From NCBI GenBank assembly GCA_903839675.1, contig CAIMDB010000006.1, forward strand, positions 1 through 64,000: 64,000 bases of DNA. Direction: 5' to 3'. Positions within the stretch are counted from its first letter, which is position 1; each line of letters starts with the position of its first letter. The notes under the pieces were generated by a model that had not been told where the DNA came from, made no database searches, and saw nothing but the letters and a program-made list of their open reading frames with translations. Made by a program: the position numbers and the translations under genes. This DNA is from an uncultured Sphingomonadales bacterium (GTDB taxonomy: Bacteria; Pseudomonadota; Alphaproteobacteria; Sphingomonadales; Sphingomonadaceae). Shown piece by piece: positions 9,631-52,849 of this stretch.

Positions 9631-9827
9631 GGGGGATGGCACGCAATGTTCGCTATTCAGGATGAAACTGATCTTTTGCCTGCCGTCACTGGCCTGACGC
9701 GCGCGTGCTTGGCTTGTCACGGGTAAACCAACGCGTTAGTTGAATGCCATCCCGGGGCAATGCAACCTCCCGGACAAGCGCAGCGTGCGCTCAAGCGTTG
9801 TCTTCTTTCCTCCGCTAGAGCGGAGCC

Positions 9828-11165
9828 ATGGAGGCGTGTTTGAAAAAGCTGTGCTGGATCGCCGCCGCCCTTTCACCATCAGTCGCTTTGGCTGAGGACG
9901 GCCTCACCGTCAGTGGCAGCAGCCGTATTCGTTATGAACTGATTGAAGGGCAACCGCGCACCGGGTTCAACGCGTCAGACGACCTGCTCAACATCCGCAC
10001 CATCCTTGGAGTCGAATACCGAGCCGGGAACCTTCATCTGGGCGCCCAAGTTTACGACAGCAGAGCCTATGGCGGCAATGCGGGCACGCCCATGTCGACG
10101 AATGAGGTTAACACGCTTGAGCCGGTGCAGGCCTATATCGCTTATGAGGTGCCGGGCGCTTTTGGCGCGCAGACGAAGCTTGCCCTGCAGGCGGGCCGCT
10201 TCATGCTCAATCTGGGGTCCCGTCGCTTAGTCGCTGCAGACGATTACCGGAACACTACTAACGGCTACACTGGGCTGCGGGCGGATTTAAGCCTGCCGCA
10301 CAAGCTGACAGCGACGCTTATCTACACCATGCCACAGGTGCGCCTGCCCGATGCACGGGCGGACCTTTCCCGAAACAAGGTACAGTTAGACCGGGAAAGC
10401 GGTGACCTTGTCCTATGGGGCGGCGTCCTAACCAAGAAACTCAATGCCAGCGCCGGTGCGCTCGAGATCACGTATCTGCATTTGGGGGAACGGGATTCGG
10501 CAAAGCTTGCGACGCGTGACCTTTCGCTCGATACATTCGGCGCGCGGCTGTTTCGTGAACCGGCATCTGGGCGCTTGGATTTTGAAAGCGAGTTCATCGT
10601 CCAGGCGGGCCACATCAGTGCGTCGCTTGCGCCGTCCGCACCGAAACTTAGAGTGTGTAGCGGGTTTGTGCATGCAGAAGCCGGGTTTACAGCGCGACAC
10701 CCTTGGTCGCCGCGCCTTGCCCTTGAGTTTGACTATGCCAGCGGGGATGGCCGCGGACCAAAATTCGGTCGTTTTGATACGCTTTTCGGGATGCGCCGCG
10801 CAGACTTAGCCCCCTCGGGCCTCTACAACGCTTTGGCGCGCACCAATATTATTTCACTTGGGCTTCGCGCGGAGGCCGCACCCTCCAAACGGCTGGACGC
10901 CTTCGCCGCTTACCGACCGATGTGGCTCGCCTCTGCCACAGACAGCTTCGCGACGACCGGTGTGCGCGATGCCGCTGGTCTGTCAGGGACATTCGCGGGC
11001 CACCAATTCGAGGCGCGCGTTCGTTACTTGCTCGTGCCCAAGCGGCTCCGGCTGGAATGGGACGGGGTCCTCCTCGCAAAGGGACGGTTTCTGGAAGACG
11101 CGCCCAATGCGCCGCCGAGTGGCACGACAGTCTACAACTCGTTCAATGCGACGGTGAGCTTTTAA
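9828..11165 (+). CDS. alginate export-type outer-membrane porin
   Basis: This 445-residue protein has a signal peptide (cleavage after about VALA) and then alternating beta-strand sequence typical of a 16-18-strand outer-membrane barrel; it ends in an aromatic-terminated strand, NATVSF. YRAGNLHLGAQVYDSRAYGG and FMLNLGSRRLVAADDYRNT resemble the alginate-export (AlgE-like) family, whose sphingomonad members probably pass sugars or other solutes. The substrate cannot be read from sequence. The ATG at 9828 has poor Shine-Dalgarno spacing. A TTG at 9840 has GGAGG five bases upstream and would give a textbook signal peptide starting MKKLCW, so it may be the real start. The gene is divergent from cysD. 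Confidence 0.8.
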   Translation: MEACLKKLCWIAAALSPSVALAEDGLTVSGSSRIRYELIEGQPRTGFNASDDLLNIRTILGVEYRAGNLHLGAQVYDSRAYGGNAGTPMSTNEVNTLEPVQAYIAYEVPGAFGAQTKLALQAGRFMLNLGSRRLVAADDYRNTTNGYTGLRADLSLPHKLTATLIYTMPQVRLPDARADLSRNKVQLDRESGDLVLWGGVLTKKLNASAGALEITYLHLGERDSAKLATRDLSLDTFGARLFREPASGRLDFESEFIVQAGHISASLAPSAPKLRVCSGFVHAEAGFTARHPWSPRLALEFDYASGDGRGPKFGRFDTLFGMRRADLAPSGLYNALARTNIISLGLRAEAAPSKRLDAFAAYRPMWLASATDSFATTGVRDAAGLSGTFAGHQFEARVRYLLVPKRLRLEWDGVLLAKGRFLEDAPNAPPSGTTVYNSFNATVSF

Positions 11166-17061: not shown

Positions 17062-17295
17062 ATGCCAATGGCTGCCGCCGATATTGAAGACCTGATCCGC
17101 GCCGCATTTCCGGATGCCGTGATCGACATCACGGATCTCGCCGGAGACGGGGACCACTATGCTGCCAAGGTGACATCTGCTGCCTTTGCAGGGATGCCCC
17201 GTGTGCGCCAGCATCAGGCCGTTTATGCCGCCCTGGGCGGCCGCATGGGCGGAGAACTGCACGCCCTTCAACTCACTACTGCCATCCCCGATTGA
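17062..17295 (+). CDS. BolA family protein
   Basis: This 77-residue BolA-like protein carries the conserved helix-turn region [20 protein letters not shown] with the invariant His (in RQH) that helps bind a [2Fe-2S] cluster together with a monothiol glutaredoxin. That partner is encoded 10 bases downstream. BolA-Grx4 complexes act in iron sensing and Fe-S trafficking. Length is typical of the short BolA/IbaG branch. Confidence 0.92.
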
Positions 17296-17305
17296 GGACC
17301 TCATT

Positions 17306-17641
17306 ATGACCGACGCCACCCAAGCCCGTATCGGCGAGATTGTGAACAGCAGCGATGTTCTGCTGTTCATGAAGGGCACGCCCTATTTCCCACAGTGCGG
17401 TTTTTCGAGCCGCGCCGTCGCCATACTTGAACATCTTGGTGTTGAGTTTGGCAGCTTTGACGTGCTGCAAGACCCTGAAGTCCGCGCAGGCATCAAGGAA
17501 TTTTCCGACTGGCCGACCATTCCCCAGCTTTATGTGAAGGGCGAATTTGTCGGCGGATCGGACATCATGATGGAAATGTTTGAAGCCGGAGAGCTGAGTG
17601 CGATGATGGCTGAAAAGGGCGTGCCGTCAACCGCCGCCTGA
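17306..17641 (+). CDS. grxD: monothiol glutaredoxin, Grx4 type
   Basis: This 111-residue protein has the monothiol active site CGFS at residues 31-34 after MKGTPYFPQ, and the downstream [19 protein letters not shown] glutathione-binding loop. It carries or transfers [2Fe-2S] clusters with BolA. I chose the ATG at 17306; the frame is open further upstream across bolA, but the family begins here. Together with bolA and the ATPase zeta gene it forms a three-gene operon. Confidence 0.95.
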
Positions 17642-17667: not shown

Positions 17668-17817
17668 GCCCCGTGCGTGACACGGGGCTTGGCTTTTATT
17701 GCAGTCTCACGGTCGGCGTGGAGGTCGAATTGCCCGATCTTCGGGGCCAATGGTCGACTGGAAGCTTGGGACGGAAACCCGACGAAGCGAAGCCCAGCCC
17801 CGTGTCAAGCAAGGGGC
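17668..17817. repeat. inverted pair of palindromic elements (REP-like doublet)
   Basis: Element 1 (17668-17695) contains GCCCCGTG-CGTGA-CACGGGGC followed by TTGGCTTTTA, which could terminate the grxD transcript. Element 2 (17790-17817) is the reverse complement of element 1 at about 24 of 28 positions. Two facing copies of one palindrome about 95 bases apart resemble a REP/BIME unit. The stretch 17818-17900 shows nothing else I can support. Confidence 0.6.
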
Positions 17818-17900
17818 GACGGCTGTGTGGCGGCGAATTTGTCCACGCTGCAAAGGCTCGGGCGAAAGGCTGGGGCACTGCATGGGGCTGTCCAGAAACG

Positions 17901-18045
17901 GGAAAGGGCGGACCGATGCGAGACCAGAGGAGCAATCGATCCGCCCTTTAAGAAGCGTTTGGGGAACGCTCGTTGGGAACACCCATAACGATGCAGGCTG
18001 CGTGCCAGTTTGGGCGGGTGTCGGTTTTCTGACGTTTCTGGTGGT
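17901..18045 (-). ncRNA. candidate small RNA, copy 1 of a duplicated unit
   Basis: This minus-strand candidate of about 145 bases is nearly repeated at 19133-19278. Its 3' end is a 15-pair stem (17903-17949) with a 17-base loop reading UGCUCCUCUGGUCUCGC on the minus strand, then UUU. Compared with copy 2, one stem pair changes from C-G to T-A. Another changes from A-T to a pair that works as G-U only in minus-strand RNA and would be a C-A mismatch on the plus strand. That pattern favours a minus-strand RNA. The CUCCUCU loop could pair with Shine-Dalgarno sequences. The 5' end is a guess from the promoter-like sequence at 18053-18078. No known RNA family was identified. Confidence 0.5.
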
Positions 18046-18052
18046 GAAGCAG

Positions 18053-18089
18053 ATTTTAACCAAATAGCGATCTGTCAAAATTTCCGACA
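18053..18089 (-). promoter_or_regulatory. promoter-like sequence and dyad of candidate small RNA copy 1
   Basis: On the minus strand TTGACA (18078-18073) is followed after 14 bases by TAAAAT (18058-18053), a shorter spacing than usual. On the plus strand TGTC-N9-GACA (18073-18089) forms a dyad overlapping the -35 box. The dyad recurs with identical spacing in copy 2, so both may be under the same control. Confidence 0.4.
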
Positions 18090-18143
18090 AATGGGGCGGG
18101 GATCGCCCGCGGATGTTCCTGGCTCTTGTGTTCATTTCTATAT

Positions 18144-18159
18144 TTCGATAATCATCGAA
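18144..18159 (+). promoter_or_regulatory. ArsR/SmtB-type operator in front of arsR
   Basis: TTCGAT-N4-ATCGAA is a perfect 6-base dyad ending two bases before the arsR ATG. The AT-rich TTCGAT half-site is like known ArsR-family operators. Its position would block the promoter or the first transcribed bases and suggests autoregulation of arsR and the aquaglyceroporin. No ribosome-binding site fits between it and the ATG, so the message may have little or no leader. Confidence 0.6.
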
Positions 18160-18161
18160 TC

Positions 18162-18482
18162 ATGGAAACGAAAACCGACGCTGCCATCATCGTCCGTGCC
18201 CTCAGTGCCTTGGCGCAGGAGCATCGCCTCGCCGTGTTCCGTTTGCTCGTGCAAGCGGGGCCGGAGGGGCTGCCTGCGGGCGTCCTCGCTGATGCGCTCG
18301 CGGTGCCTGCCTCGTCGATGAGCTTTCATCTCGCCCAATTGGCCAATGCCGGGCTTGTTACCCAAAAGCGGCAGAGCCGATCGATTATCTACGCAGCGGA
18401 CTTTGCGGCGATGAGCACGCTGATGGCGTTCATGACTGAAAACTGCTGCGGCGGCGTGCCGTGCGAGGCTGCGGCGGCATGA
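18162..18482 (+). CDS. arsR: ArsR-family metalloid-responsive repressor
   Basis: This 106-residue winged-helix regulator spans about residues 8-90 as the HTH domain, with recognition helix PASSMSFHLAQLANAGLV. It ends TENCCGGVPC, placing three cysteines at 95, 96 and 101. A C-terminal cysteine cluster is the As(III)/Sb(III) site in the Acidithiobacillus ArsR type, so this is more likely arsenite-responsive than a Zn/Cd sensor. I chose the ATG at 18162, abutting the operator; an upstream in-frame ATG at 18126 would put the operator inside the coding region. Its stop overlaps the channel gene as ATGA. Confidence 0.88.
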   Translation: METKTDAAIIVRALSALAQEHRLAVFRLLVQAGPEGLPAGVLADALAVPASSMSFHLAQLANAGLVTQKRQSRSIIYAADFAAMSTLMAFMTENCCGGVPCEAAAA

Positions 18483-19129
18483 TTCAGCGGCTTTGGGCCG
18501 AAGCGCTCGGCAGTTTCTTTCTGTTCGCGACTGTCGTTGGGTCCGGCATCATGGCGGAACGGCTGGCAGGCGGGAATGTCGCGGTCGCCCTCATCGGCAA
18601 TACGCTGGCGACAGCCGCCATTCTCTATGTGCTGATCACGATGCTTGCACCCGTGTCTGGCGCGCATTTCAATCCGGCTGTCAGCCTCGTCGCGCGGCTG
18701 CAGGGGGATGGAAGCTGGAAGGGGCTGGGCGCCACAATCGCGGTCCAGATCCTTGCGGGCATCGCGGGGGTGTGGACGGCCCATGCCATGTTCGATTTGC
18801 CGATCCTTCAGGCCTCCACTCATATCCGCACCGGACCCGGCCAATGGTTGGGGGAATTTGTTGCGACCTTTGGTCTGGTCATGACCATCCTGCTGACGGT
18901 CCGCCACCGCGCAGAGGCCGTGCCGCTGAGCGTGGCGCTCTACATCACGGCGGCCTATTGGTTCACCTCGTCGACGAGCTTTGCCAACCCTGCGATCACG
19001 ATTGCCCGCAGCCTGAGTGACAGTTTTGCCGGAATTGCGCCTGCAGACGTGCCTGCCTTCATCGCTGCGCAATTTGCAGGCGCACTGGCGGCGCATGGCT
19101 TTGAACGGGGCATCTTCAAACAAAGCTGA
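18479..19129 (+). CDS. MIP-family channel (AqpS-like aquaglyceroporin)
   Basis: This 216-residue channel has six hydrophobic helices and two NPA boxes, GAHFNPAVS (NPA 65-67) and FANPAITIAR (NPA 170-172), with the pore Arg at 177. It is coupled by ATGA to an arsenite-type arsR. The arrangement matches arsR-aqpS of Sinorhizobium, where the channel lets arsenite leave the cell after arsenate reduction. No arsenate reductase, ArsH or ArsB/Acr3 is present here, so the pair is incomplete or the other genes lie elsewhere. The stop is 6 bases from the 3' end of candidate RNA copy 2. Confidence 0.87.
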   Translation: MIQRLWAEALGSFFLFATVVGSGIMAERLAGGNVAVALIGNTLATAAILYVLITMLAPVSGAHFNPAVSLVARLQGDGSWKGLGATIAVQILAGIAGVWTAHAMFDLPILQASTHIRTGPGQWLGEFVATFGLVMTILLTVRHRAEAVPLSVALYITAAYWFTSSTSFANPAITIARSLSDSFAGIAPADVPAFIAAQFAGALAAHGFERGIFKQS

Positions 19130-19132
19130 AAT

Positions 19133-19278
19133 GGAAAAGGGCGGATCGACGCGAGACCAGAGGAGCAGTCGATCCGCCCTTTAAGAAGCGTTTGGGGAAC
19201 GCTCGTTGGGAACACCAATATCAATGCAGGCCGCGTGCCAGAGCGTGCCAGTGTCGGTTTTCTGACGCTTTCGATGGT
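19133..19278 (-). ncRNA. candidate small RNA, copy 2 of a duplicated unit
   Basis: Near-identical to 17901-18045 over the whole unit, including its promoter region. The 3' stem (19136-19182) is a perfect 15 pairs, AAAGGGCGGATCGAC with its complement, around the same 17-base loop as copy 1; on the minus strand it is followed by UUUUCC. Thus the terminator orientation, the conserved loop and the base-pair changes between copies all agree with a minus-strand transcript running from the blaI side toward the channel gene. It may also terminate the arsR operon message on the plus strand. Confidence 0.5.
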
Positions 19279-19284
19279 GAAGCG

Positions 19285-19322
19285 AAATTAACCAGCGACC
19301 CCATTTGTCAAAAATCCCGACA
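19285..19322 (-). promoter_or_regulatory. promoter-like sequence and dyad of candidate small RNA copy 2
   Basis: On the minus strand TTGACA (19311-19306) precedes TAATTT (19290-19285) by 15 bases. The plus strand shows the same TGTC-N9-GACA dyad as copy 1 (19306-19322). Conservation of this dyad outside the transcribed part argues that the duplicated unit includes its control region. Confidence 0.4.
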
Positions 19323-19362
19323 AAAACATCGCCTCTTGCATTCATCTGTGGTTCAGGCGTAC

Positions 19363-19421: not shown

Positions 19422-19790
19422 ATGGCCGAACGGATCAGCGATGCAGAGCATGCGGTGATGGAGGTCCTTTGGGATCACGCGCCGCTTGATGCCCAGTCTA
19501 TCTATGACCGCCTCTCCGGTTCGCAGAGCTGGACGCTGGCGACGGTGAAGACGTTGCTCTCGCGTCTGGTGAGCAAGGATGCGCTGGCCACTCAAGCGCA
19601 GGGACGCAAGTTTCTCTATCGCCCTGCCATTGAACGCACGGCCTATGTCGCCGGGGAATCGCACCGTTTCGTTGACCGATTATTTGGCGGCAAGCTGAGC
19701 CCGCTGGTCGCGCAGTTCGCAGAGTCAGAGAAACTGTCTCCTGAGGACATTGCCGAAATTGAAGCCCTTTTGCAGGAGCTGAAGAAATGA
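19422..19790 (+). CDS. BlaI/MecI/CopY-family transcriptional repressor
   Basis: This 122-residue repressor has the N-terminal winged helix (MAERISDAEHAVMEVLW, then the recognition helix WTLATVKTLLSRLVSKD) and a C-terminal dimerisation helix bundle. Such repressors are inactivated by proteolysis triggered by a partner M56 membrane protease, which is encoded directly downstream with ATGA overlap. A consensus operator lies upstream. There is no beta-lactamase gene adjacent, so the regulated output is unknown. Confidence 0.93.
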   Translation: MAERISDAEHAVMEVLWDHAPLDAQSIYDRLSGSQSWTLATVKTLLSRLVSKDALATQAQGRKFLYRPAIERTAYVAGESHRFVDRLFGGKLSPLVAQFAESEKLSPEDIAEIEALLQELKK

Positions 19791-21322
19791 GCGGTTGGAT
19801 TATCGAGACGCTGATTGCGTCCACATTGTTGATGCTCTTCGTTCTGGCCCTTCGAGAGCCGGTGAGCCGCCACTTCGGCTCGCGCATCGCTTACGCATTG
19901 TGGCTTCTGCCCGCGCTGCGGCTGGTGCTACCGCCCATGCCCGAAAGCTGGGGCGCGGCTGCTGTGGCACCCGCGGCGAAAATGTCTGTTTTGATCGGAC
20001 AGGCGGCTCCGGTCGTTGAAACCAGCACCAACTGGGCTCTCGTGTTTGCGGGTGCCTGGGCCTTGGGAAGCTTGGCCTTTCTCGGCTGGCATCTCGCGGT
20101 CTATCGGCGCTTTGCCGCCCGCGTGCGGCAGGATTGTGAACCTTTGTGTGATCATGAGGCGTTCCCTGTGCAGGCCAGCCCCTTGGTCCGGTCGCCGCTG
20201 GCCTTTGGTGTGCGCGGTAAGATGGTCGTCGTCCCCGCCGACTTTGCCGATCGCTACGATGCCGCTGAACAACGGTTCGCGCTCGCCCATGAAGTGACGC
20301 ACCACCGGCGCGGCGATCTGATTGCCAATTTTGTCGGGCTTGCCGTACTGGCGCTGCATTGGTTCAACCCAGTTGCGCATATCGCCTGGCGCGCCTTTCG
20401 GCTGGATCAGGAAGCCGCGTGCGATGCCATGGTGTTGCGTGGGGCCTCGTCCGAAGACCGCCATGTTTATGGCTTAGCTCTCGTCAAATCAGCGACAGGT
20501 GGCGTGCCGCTGGCGGCCTGCACGATGACGGCTAAGACCGGCCTCAAGACAAGGCTGCGGCGGATCGTTGAGGGGCGCTTGGCCCCGATGCGCGGCGGCG
20601 CGGCTGTCGCCGGACTGCTCGTCGCAGGCGGTCTTGCGGTCACGGCCTCCACAGGCATCGCCGCCGAAGCCGCGCGCAAGGTTGAAGCGTCTGCCCCGAT
20701 GCTCGCGCTCAACGAAGTTGTGCTGGTGCATGACCTACCCGATCCGGCAGAGATTGAGGCGAAGATCCAGGCCGCGGACGCGCAGGCCAAGGCTGAGGTC
20801 AACCGCGCCCGTGCCAGCGCCCAGGCCGAGATCAATCGCGTTGCTGCTGCGGGCTATATGAGCGCAGCCGATTTCGCCGAAGCCAAGGCTGATGTTGATC
20901 AGGAATTGGCTGAGGGTCTGGCTGATGCGCAGGTCGCACTAGACGAAGCGCGTCGGGACGCGGAGGCTGCACGGACAGAGGCAGAGGCCGCCCGCACAGA
21001 TGCGCAAGCCCGGTCGCATGCTCGCCCCATCAGCACCGCTATCTCCTCTGCCATGCCCGTTCGTTGCGGCGAGGGGACGAAACTCTCTAGTTTTGCGCAG
21101 CAGGTCGCGTCACCCGATGGCCCGACCCGCGTGATCCGCATCGCGGTTTGTGCGCCGGATGCGAAGACGACGCGCGCGATGGTCCGTCATTCGCTCGCCC
21201 AGGTGCGCGCCCAGATCGCCCGTGATCCGATGATCCCTGCCGACATGCGTCAGACCATCCTGACGTCGCTTGACCAGCAGATGGCAGACGAACCCGCGCG
21301 CCAGCGGATGTCGCTGCAATAA
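19787..21322 (+). CDS. M56-family (BlaR1/MecR1-like) membrane peptidase
   Basis: This 511-residue protein has hydrophobic segments at about 5-20, 33-50, 85-105, 180-192 and 272-290. Between them is the zinc protease site: HEVTH at 168-172 and QEAACD at 208-213. After the last membrane segment comes a charged Ala-rich coiled coil (about 325-410) and then a domain with C427-x27-C455. It lacks the penicillin-binding sensor of BlaR1, so the signal is probably not a beta-lactam. It likely cleaves the BlaI partner when the outer domain senses its cue. The C-terminal domain is repeated in the next gene. Confidence 0.9.
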   Translation: MSGWIIETLIASTLLMLFVLALREPVSRHFGSRIAYALWLLPALRLVLPPMPESWGAAAVAPAAKMSVLIGQAAPVVETSTNWALVFAGAWALGSLAFLGWHLAVYRRFAARVRQDCEPLCDHEAFPVQASPLVRSPLAFGVRGKMVVVPADFADRYDAAEQRFALAHEVTHHRRGDLIANFVGLAVLALHWFNPVAHIAWRAFRLDQEAACDAMVLRGASSEDRHVYGLALVKSATGGVPLAACTMTAKTGLKTRLRRIVEGRLAPMRGGAAVAGLLVAGGLAVTASTGIAAEAARKVEASAPMLALNEVVLVHDLPDPAEIEAKIQAADAQAKAEVNRARASAQAEINRVAAAGYMSAADFAEAKADVDQELAEGLADAQVALDEARRDAEAARTEAEAARTDAQARSHARPISTAISSAMPVRCGEGTKLSSFAQQVASPDGPTRVIRIAVCAPDAKTTRAMVRHSLAQVRAQIARDPMIPADMRQTILTSLDQQMADEPARQRMSLQ

Positions 21323-51661: not shown

Positions 51662-52849
51662 TTAGTTTGCTCCACGACCGCGTTGGCCGCCCCGCGAGGC
51701 GTAGTCATTGCTCTTATGGTTGGCAGCGACAACCGAGGCGACTTGCTGGATCAGCTTCTGCCGGGCGGGAATCGGCGCTGTCGTGTCAGCGATCATGACA
51801 GCGACGGCATAGCTGGTGCCATCGGGTGCAACCATGATGCCAACATCGTTGAAGCCGGCTGTGCGGCTCCGCAGGTCCTGACCAGTGCCGGTTTTGTGCG
51901 CAAGCTTCCAACCGGCAGGAACGCCGGCCTTCAGGCGGGCACGGCCTGTTTCGGTCGATTCCATGATATTGATCAGATAGCGGGTCGATTGTGCGCTCAA
52001 CAGTTCGCCGCGCTTCAGGCGGGCAAGCGAGCGGGCAATGGCGGCGGGCGTCGCGCCGTCCATCGGATCCGACACATATTTGTCCATCGCCGCCTTCCGG
52101 GTGGCCGGGGATAGAGCCGCGCGCGCCGTGTTGAAGGCGCCGCCAAAGCTATACTCGGGCTTCCAAGTCAGGCCTGCGGTTGCCGCCTGAAAATTGCGTT
52201 CGCCGGGGCCAAAGCGGATGGCGCCGAGGCGCTTTGAGGCGATCAACTCGCGGATGGCGTTCGGGCCACCGACGCGGCGCATGAGGAAATCATTGGCCGT
52301 ATTGTCGCTCTGCATCATCGCGCGCTTCAGCAGACTTGCAATCGTCGTTGTATAGCCATTGGGGCCAATCAGCCCTGCAATTGGCTGATGAAACACGGTG
52401 ATGTCCGATTTCCGCAGAGTGACGCTGTCATCCAGCGACAATTTGCCTTTGTCGATCGCGTCCATCACCGCGATGGAGACCCATAATTTTGATACGCTCT
52501 GCTGCGGCATCGGTTCATCGCCGCGATACGAGACGATCCACGATCCGTCTGTCTTCATGACCGCAATGCCGGCCTTGCCGGGGAACGACGCCCACATAGA
52601 GCGAAGTGCGGTCACCATTTCCGGCGGCGCTGCGCGCGCACCATCGTTGATGGTCGGCTGCGAAGAAGGTGTAGGGAGCGCGATACGGACCGACTGTCCA
52701 ACTGGCCGCGCCCCTTTGGCGACGCTTTGCGCGTCCGCGCTTTTGGGCGTTGTGATTCGGGCAGGGGGAGAGGCCGGCGAAACGCAGGCTGTCGCGATCA
52801 GTCCAAGCCCCAATGTCAAACGAACCTGTTTGACAACATTCACAACCAT
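51662..52849 (-). CDS. class A beta-lactamase-like serine hydrolase
   Basis: This 395-residue exported protein begins with a membrane/lipoprotein-type signal (LTLGLGLIATAC, possible lipid Cys). Class A landmarks are in order: SVSK (SxxK), QSDN (SDN) and HKTGTG (KTG). Counting from the SDN Ser as position 130 places a Glu exactly at position 166 in GPGERNFQ, but position 170 is Gln, not Asn. About 40 extra residues follow before the DGATPAAIARSL helix. It may be a divergent beta-lactamase or a peptidoglycan hydrolase. The ATG at 52849 starts the signal; a longer frame reaches 52990. Confidence 0.82.
   Translation of the reverse strand: MVVNVVKQVRLTLGLGLIATACVSPASPPARITTPKSADAQSVAKGARPVGQSVRIALPTPSSQPTINDGARAAPPEMVTALRSMWASFPGKAGIAVMKTDGSWIVSYRGDEPMPQQSVSKLWVSIAVMDAIDKGKLSLDDSVTLRKSDITVFHQPIAGLIGPNGYTTTIASLLKRAMMQSDNTANDFLMRRVGGPNAIRELIASKRLGAIRFGPGERNFQAATAGLTWKPEYSFGGAFNTARAALSPATRKAAMDKYVSDPMDGATPAAIARSLARLKRGELLSAQSTRYLINIMESTETGRARLKAGVPAGWKLAHKTGTGQDLRSRTAGFNDVGIMVAPDGTSYAVAVMIADTTAPIPARQKLIQQVASVVAANHKSNDYASRGGQRGRGAN

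Follow-up and report, generated by a model that had tools for sequence, protein, structure and literature searches.

The analysed stretch of 64,000 nt, hereafter the window, contains two near-identical units, copy A and copy B, lying among plus-strand genes. The bolA and grxD genes (17062-17641, +; Pfam BolA and Glutaredoxin) are convergent with copy A and are conserved neighbours by synteny. An ArsR-type regulator gene and a MIP channel gene (18162-19129, +) separate the twins, the MIP stop codon being located 3 nt before the hairpin of copy B. The blaI-like and blaR1(M56)-like genes (19422-21322, +; Pfam Penicillinase_R and Peptidase_M56) diverge from copy B and are frequent neighbours by synteny. 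Open frames on the minus strand span both copies (17707-18135 and 18955-19224). Between grxD and copy A lies an inverted repeat of 33 nt (17663-17695/17790-17822, 91% complementary, 94 nt apart); similar letters adjoin the locus in a relative (G002), and it is perhaps a palindromic repeat element. Elsewhere in the window, the Rfam cis-regulatory RNA chrB-b has a match at 9752-9801 (+; 37.8 bits, gathering score 36.5). It immediately precedes an alginate-export-type porin gene (9828-11165) and is divergently oriented to a cysD-like gene.

A sequence-only reading of this DNA had described the twins as units of ~190 bases (17901-18091 and 19133-19324). Alignment confirmed the duplication, with 88% identity over 156 ungapped nt (17895-18050 versus 19128-19283) and 84% when extended to 197 nt, and the two units are the sole matches across their own 2.9-Mb genome. 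The stem arms of 15 nt separated by 17 nt, and the loop letters between them, were found as described in both copies, at 17903-17917/17935-17949 in copy A (93% complementary) and at 19136-19150/19168-19182 in copy B (100% complementary). Both stem differences already pointed out are also present: a C-G to U-A change between the copies, and a G-U pair of copy A, possible on the minus strand only, where copy B pairs Watson-Crick.

Between the dyad and the stem, both copies carry TGGCACG-N4-CTGCA, which fits the -24/-12 consensus of sigma-54 promoters. The exact matches are TGGCACGCAGCCTGCA in copy A (17992-18007, -), kept in relatives, and TGGCACGCGGCCTGCA in copy B (19225-19240, -). Exact TGGCACG-N4-YTGCW occurs nowhere else in the window, and six times genome-wide compared to two for the reversed pattern; with up to two mismatches, the 26 matches in the window are not above the 28.9 expected by chance. 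Upstream of these elements, pattern searches found enhancer-like dyads of 17 nt: TGTCGGAAATTTTGACA in copy A (18073-18089, -), a candidate PrsR site with the spacing of PEP-CTERM promoters, and TGTCGGGATTTTTGACA in copy B (19306-19322, -). The sequence-only reading had noted TGTC-N9-GACA dyads at identical spacing in a promoter-like region. The dyads are indeed present in both copies, but they are not the core promoter, which is the sigma-54 element 65 nt downstream that this reading had overlooked. A sigma-70 promoter at TTGACA was dropped given the exact sigma-54 element, and sites near 51784-51842 resembling the dyad and the sigma-54 element, with two mismatches each, were taken as chance. 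The interval between enhancer and promoter also includes a second, weaker dyad seen in this genus (18019-18034 in copy A, 19252-19267 in copy B, both -). At 18042-18061 (-), again between dyad and promoter, a GGTTAA...AACCAT block is conserved at the same place in relatives; a bending protein or a second regulator may bind there.

From the usual 12-nt distance to the -12 GC, we infer that the RNAs start near 17981 and 19214. The promoter direction and these predicted starts point to a minus-strand RNA of probably ~80 nt, instead of the ~145-nt transcript previously suggested. Copy A would extend over 17899-17981 (-), with a 5′ stem at 17953-17971 and a 3′ stem-loop at 17903-17949, and is supported by covariation (see below); copy B would extend over 19132-19214 (-), with its 3′ stem-loop at 19136-19182, the exact ends of both being predicted from sequence. 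These 83-nt RNAs fold with z-scores of -5.3 (A) and -5.9 (B), and none of 200 shuffles folds as well. For the longer stretches delimited by the sequence-only reading, z-scores were -3.6 and -2.8 on the minus strand versus -3.5 and -4.4 on the plus strand; since the plus strand folds about equally well, the fold alone does not fix the strand. No U-run follows the stem in the window copies, while one is present in G361, G179 and G230. At gathering score, no Rfam 15 family matches at the locus, and over 18 loci of relatives tRNAs alone were above this score, none on the sRNA.

BLAST searches of 60 genomes, including its own, gave matches in six, all of this genus; a search for plasmid relatives gave no match. 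In G002, G009 and G012, the twins form a tandem pair between grxD and blaI, with starts 428 to ~490 nt apart. No ArsR/MIP genes were found in the stretches examined of these three genomes; this cassette splits the twins in the window genome only and is absent from the sRNA locus elsewhere. Covariance-model searches, called for by the sequence-only reading, did yield homologues: model R1, built on 10 transcript sequences with the promoter excluded, matched 55 of 397 genomes of the family, in 18 of 96 genera. Its matches run from 76 to 100 nt with many indels. Forty-four of the 50 non-training places were read, leaving out G341, G154, G311, G340, G159 and the second place of G061. TGGCAC-N6-TGC was present upstream in 40 of these 44 loci (displaced 30 nt upstream in three partial matches), with near misses in G163 and G332 and no sigma-54 promoter in G225 and G214. 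The dyad expression, ending TTGACA/TTTACA, matched in 36 of the 44, five more being one base off. Model R2, built on 52 sequences, was run against 396 genomes sampled from the order and matched 56, every one of them in this same family; this does not imply absence outside the family. Among 11 further R2 loci (12 were new, L255 being left out), the promoter was found in all 11 and the dyad in 10. Since the promoter was excluded from the models, its conservation at model matches is largely independent support, a few matches overlapping its last bases.

A scan of genome contigs gave, among the matches listed, many in unrelated phyla; R1 matched 18 of the 80 loci listed, at 19 places. Carriers of R1 matches among those listed include Parasphingopyxis marina, Parasphingopyxis lamellibrachiae, Sphingorhabdus contaminans and Sphingopyxis sp. 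BC.033, with weaker ones in Novosphingobium sp. FKTRR1 and Sphingomonas sp. KR1UV-12. Judging from these carriers, the family would be Sphingomonadaceae in a broad sense. One R1 match, among those listed, lies in a record labelled Cytophagales (L156).

Covariation was analysed in two alignments, both without G225 and G214, the two loci lacking a sigma-54 promoter. A4, a MAFFT alignment of 52 sequences that was not fitted to structure, displays a consensus 3′ stem of 10 pairs, nine of which carry double compensatory changes. A5, from which two plus-strand antisense matches were also left out, is structure-fitted and so leans towards its own structure; 93.6% of its cells pair, compared to 31.9-46.4% when slid, and changes on both sides occur in 22 of 24 pairs, as in none of 500 shuffles. 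G-U cells exceeded A-C cells in the inner 3′ stem of A5 (13 versus 0), over all A5 pairs (51 versus 21) and in the A4 stem minus its innermost pair (17 versus 3). This excess fits a minus-strand RNA. Together with the double changes of the A4 stem and the direction of the promoter, it upholds the earlier proposal that RNA structure is under selection on the minus strand. The stem, whose loss in relatives had been named beforehand as evidence against that proposal, is conserved in the matching relatives.

The loop sequence GGUCUCGC was found exactly in 34 of 41 scored rows (three of the 44 rows were not scorable, two of them containing CUCC); a loop tally of 38 of 42 leaves out G225 and G214. 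CUCCUCU stands in the loop of both window copies and in those of the tandem pairs of G002, G009 and G012; anti-Shine-Dalgarno-like letters were observed in 2 of the 41 scored divergent loops. At the 5′ end, a GYGUUCC-like stretch occurs in just 25 of 44. Target prediction with the loop as seed, also proposed earlier, was carried out with the loop complement in five genomes and gave no signal, with 5 non-sRNA matches versus 13 in the reversed control.

The promoter was also searched independently of the RNA, as a dyad followed after 55-75 nt by the sigma-54 element, in 37 genomes, of which 33 have no R1 match. It was present in 25 of the 37, exactly once in 22 of these 25, whereas the reversed control gave zero in 37/37. 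Behind the promoter, 18 genomes carry a hairpin RNA with a different sequence; R2 also gives weak matches in two of them, G013 and G122. Of these 18 divergent loci, 14 contain GUCUC, and 14 of the 18 make up alignment A6. The grxD gene is convergent in 16 of the 18, its end located 136-467 nt from the promoter, and the divergent loci thus look like positional counterparts. Genes for secreted-type proteins follow this promoter in G015, G017 and G076; five of the proteins were scanned, and four scored at or above the cut-off of a model for a PEP-CTERM sorting domain or family. One promoter match in G238 seems unrelated to the sRNA candidate of that genome. Over 81 loci, grxD is found downstream in at least 46, blaI upstream in at least 28 and an MBL-fold gene upstream in at least 16, these counts being lower bounds since the loci are short; an MBL-like match lies further off in about one locus (17 MBL matches over the 81 loci).

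The PrsK/PrsR pair has been linked to surface proteins sorted by exosortase, and floc formation to genes belonging to this system; to our knowledge, little is known downstream of this pair. Haft et al. 2006 (PMC1569441) describes proteobacterial PEP-CTERM genes as preceded by a motif of 17 nt that ends in TTTACA, followed after a spacer of 62.8 nt (SD 10.6) by a sigma-54 motif, also of 17 nt, and proposes PrsR as the binder of the upstream motif. By this published description, the sRNA loci have the same layout, with the 17-nt dyad, a spacer of 65 nt in the window copies and of 64.6 nt (SD 1.7) over 63 loci, -24 (GG) and -12 (GC) elements, and a genome with PrsR, PrsK and sigma-54. RpoN dependence of a PEP-CTERM gene was shown in Aquincola, where a prsK mutant was not restored by a prsK-prsR plasmid (PMC9850573).

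The genome of the window encodes PrsR (TIGR02915; 671.8 bits, cut-off 502.6), PrsK (TIGR02916; 517.7 bits, cut-off 300) and RpoN (TIGR02395; above cut-off), together with a PrsT-like protein scoring 272.4, under the cut-off of 312.2. Its prsK/prsR genes adjoin a PEP-CTERM-system glycosyltransferase gene. Just upstream of the prs operon, in the region divergent with a mannose-1-phosphate guanylyltransferase-like gene, two enhancer-like dyads, one of them exact and the other with 1 mismatch, are located 25 nt apart (L109:10561-10602, corresponding to contig 35:30561-30602). G009 has the same pair at this place; no sigma-54 promoter was recognised by eye beside the dyads. Allowing up to one mismatch, the enhancer pattern occurs 19 times in the genome versus 4 in the reversed control and, since the latter also matches, many single occurrences are due to chance. 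A fourth exact match is found at contig 32:9905-9921 (L065). One sigma-54 activator homologue of the genome (L022, contig 17) has GAFAGA in place of GAFTGA in its loop.

PrsR was found in 65 of 71 genomes (36/36 with an R1 match and 29 of 35 chosen without), a near-universal presence, so that its co-occurrence with the sRNA says little. The six genomes devoid of PrsR (G001, G004, G006, G007, G008 and G025) have neither the sRNA nor the promoter, and all six have RpoN. Within the genus, six genomes have both PrsR and the sRNA, five have neither and one has PrsR only (Fisher p 0.015, a value that ignores kinship; G011 left out); the five are fragmented and 76-95% complete, and the co-loss of PrsR and sRNA may be one event. 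Model and pattern searches found neither sRNA nor promoter in the PrsR-positive G005, G078, G157, G199 and G257, while in G015, G017 and G076, also PrsR-positive, only PEP-CTERM or other genes lie behind the promoter. Such absence calls are soft, as the twins of G012 escape the promoter pattern.

Several other explanations of the twins were considered. The hairpins could be mere terminators, possibly bidirectional, of the convergent plus-strand genes on the grxD side and of the MIP gene, given that both lie downstream of plus-strand genes, that their A/T-flanked stems are readable on both strands and that the plus strand folds equally well. This is very unlikely in view of the conserved sigma-54 promoter and enhancer pointing at the hairpin, the conserved loop and the G-U bias favouring the minus strand, although the hairpin may in addition terminate plus-strand transcription. 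The same promoter stands before PEP-CTERM genes in some genomes, as would be expected if the stretch were the 5′ leader of an mRNA, whether PEP-CTERM or other; but both window copies run into plus-strand genes, the convergent grxD lies downstream at the majority of the 81 loci, and the conserved stretch ends at a terminator-like stem, making a leader extremely improbable. We likewise give next to no weight to a small-protein gene, despite the minus-strand open frames over both copies: this coding reading was set aside on the lengths and indels of the homologues, in which paired bases are kept rather than frame. Finally, the CUCCUCU loops of the window copies and of the three tandem pairs recall the CcsR/cuckoo-type anti-Shine-Dalgarno RNAs, as the sequence-only reading had suggested. 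We rejected this identification, which is scarcely credible with a stretch that is not conserved outside this genus, a sigma-54-type promoter and neighbours such as grxD and blaI.

A further alternative keeps the sigma-54-dependent sRNA and replaces PrsR by another activator, namely NtrC, the NtrC-family neighbour of NtrC, PspF or one of two others, since six proteins of the genome match Sigma54_activat strongly. The length, end and spacing of the dyad nevertheless fit the motif proposed for PrsR, dyads lie upstream of the prs operon itself, the same promoter precedes PEP-CTERM genes, and sRNA and promoter are absent where PrsR is absent though RpoN is present. Another activator is thus unlikely, and from the motif and the co-occurrence we infer that PrsR is the activator.

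The interpretation we favour, and consider probable, is that the twins are duplicate genes for one ~80-nt trans-acting sRNA, the transcription of which would depend on sigma-54 and PrsR. Its basis lies in the promoter, dyad, structure, homologues and synteny, and in the presence of PrsK, PrsR and RpoN, as read from the genomes. The membrane kinase PrsK would phosphorylate PrsR, which would then bind the TGTCGG...TKACA dyad and activate sigma-54 polymerase at TGGCAC-N6-TGC, 65 nt downstream. The resulting short RNA would start ~12 nt past the promoter and end at the strong 3′ stem-loop, and its exposed GGUCUC loop would pair with target mRNAs, base-pairing being the presumed mode of action. Induction of surface and EPS proteins could thereby be coupled to post-transcriptional control of other genes. 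On the scale of the family, we lean towards the view that PrsK-PrsR controls a dedicated sRNA, perhaps its most widely kept target in sphingomonads: the gene would stay by bolA-grxD while the RNA sequence turns over fast, the enhancer, the sigma-54 promoter and the GGUCUC loop persisting, with a tandem pair in one genus.

The twins, each behind a promoter type otherwise known from genes for biofilm surface proteins, appear to be an RNA component, so far unrecognised, of a known control system for surface building. In the open-access literature searched by title and abstract (subscription journals and supplements being outside this scope), no description of such an sRNA was found; if true, this would apparently be the first case in that literature of an exosortase regulon with an RNA arm. 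On this reading, surface assembly would be tied to the post-transcriptional regulation of other genes throughout a large environmental family, and the short list of sigma-54-driven sRNAs would gain one lineage and one activator. A conserved sRNA behind a PrsR-type promoter could also serve as a compact reporter for PrsR activity.

By analogy, the RNA may work like other sigma-54-controlled sRNAs, Qrr being the nearest analogue, while it belongs to none of the sRNA families tested. GlmY/GlmZ and CrcZ/CrcY are likewise duplicated sRNAs under sigma-54 control; their activators, sequence, structure and hosts differ, and no Rfam match to them was obtained here. Qrr is an Rfam family, and the absence of an Rfam match speaks against its conserved 32-nt core; as far as the activator scan of the genome reaches, LuxO is not the activator either. 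As described in PMC4211561 and PMC10162802, the Qrr RNAs of Vibrio resemble the twins in being sibling sRNAs under a two-component sigma-54 activator (LuxO). They differ in lineage and activator, and in their dispersed instead of tandem copies. The CcsR/cuckoo family of Alphaproteobacteria, repeated small RNAs like the twins, is defined by its anti-Shine-Dalgarno loop, which is not conserved here, the pyrimidine-rich loop being shared in this genus only. According to PMC10253847, a DUF1127 gene shares its transcript and RpoHI/RpoHII promoter with the CcsR RNAs, whereas the Pfam-scanned neighbours of our locus are not DUF1127 and its promoter is of the sigma-54 type. SuhB of Sphingopyxis granuli, a 61-nt sRNA from the same broad bacterial family, is linked to growth rate and thnR in PMC6563040; no Rfam family matched the locus studied here. 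The closest likeness is in the promoter: the PEP-CTERM promoters of Proteobacteria (Haft et al. 2006, PMC1569441) share the 17-nt dyad ending T(T/G)ACA, the ~65-nt spacer, the -24/-12 elements and a PrsK/PrsR genome, the difference being that the promoter here drives a predicted short structured RNA and not a PEP-CTERM protein gene.
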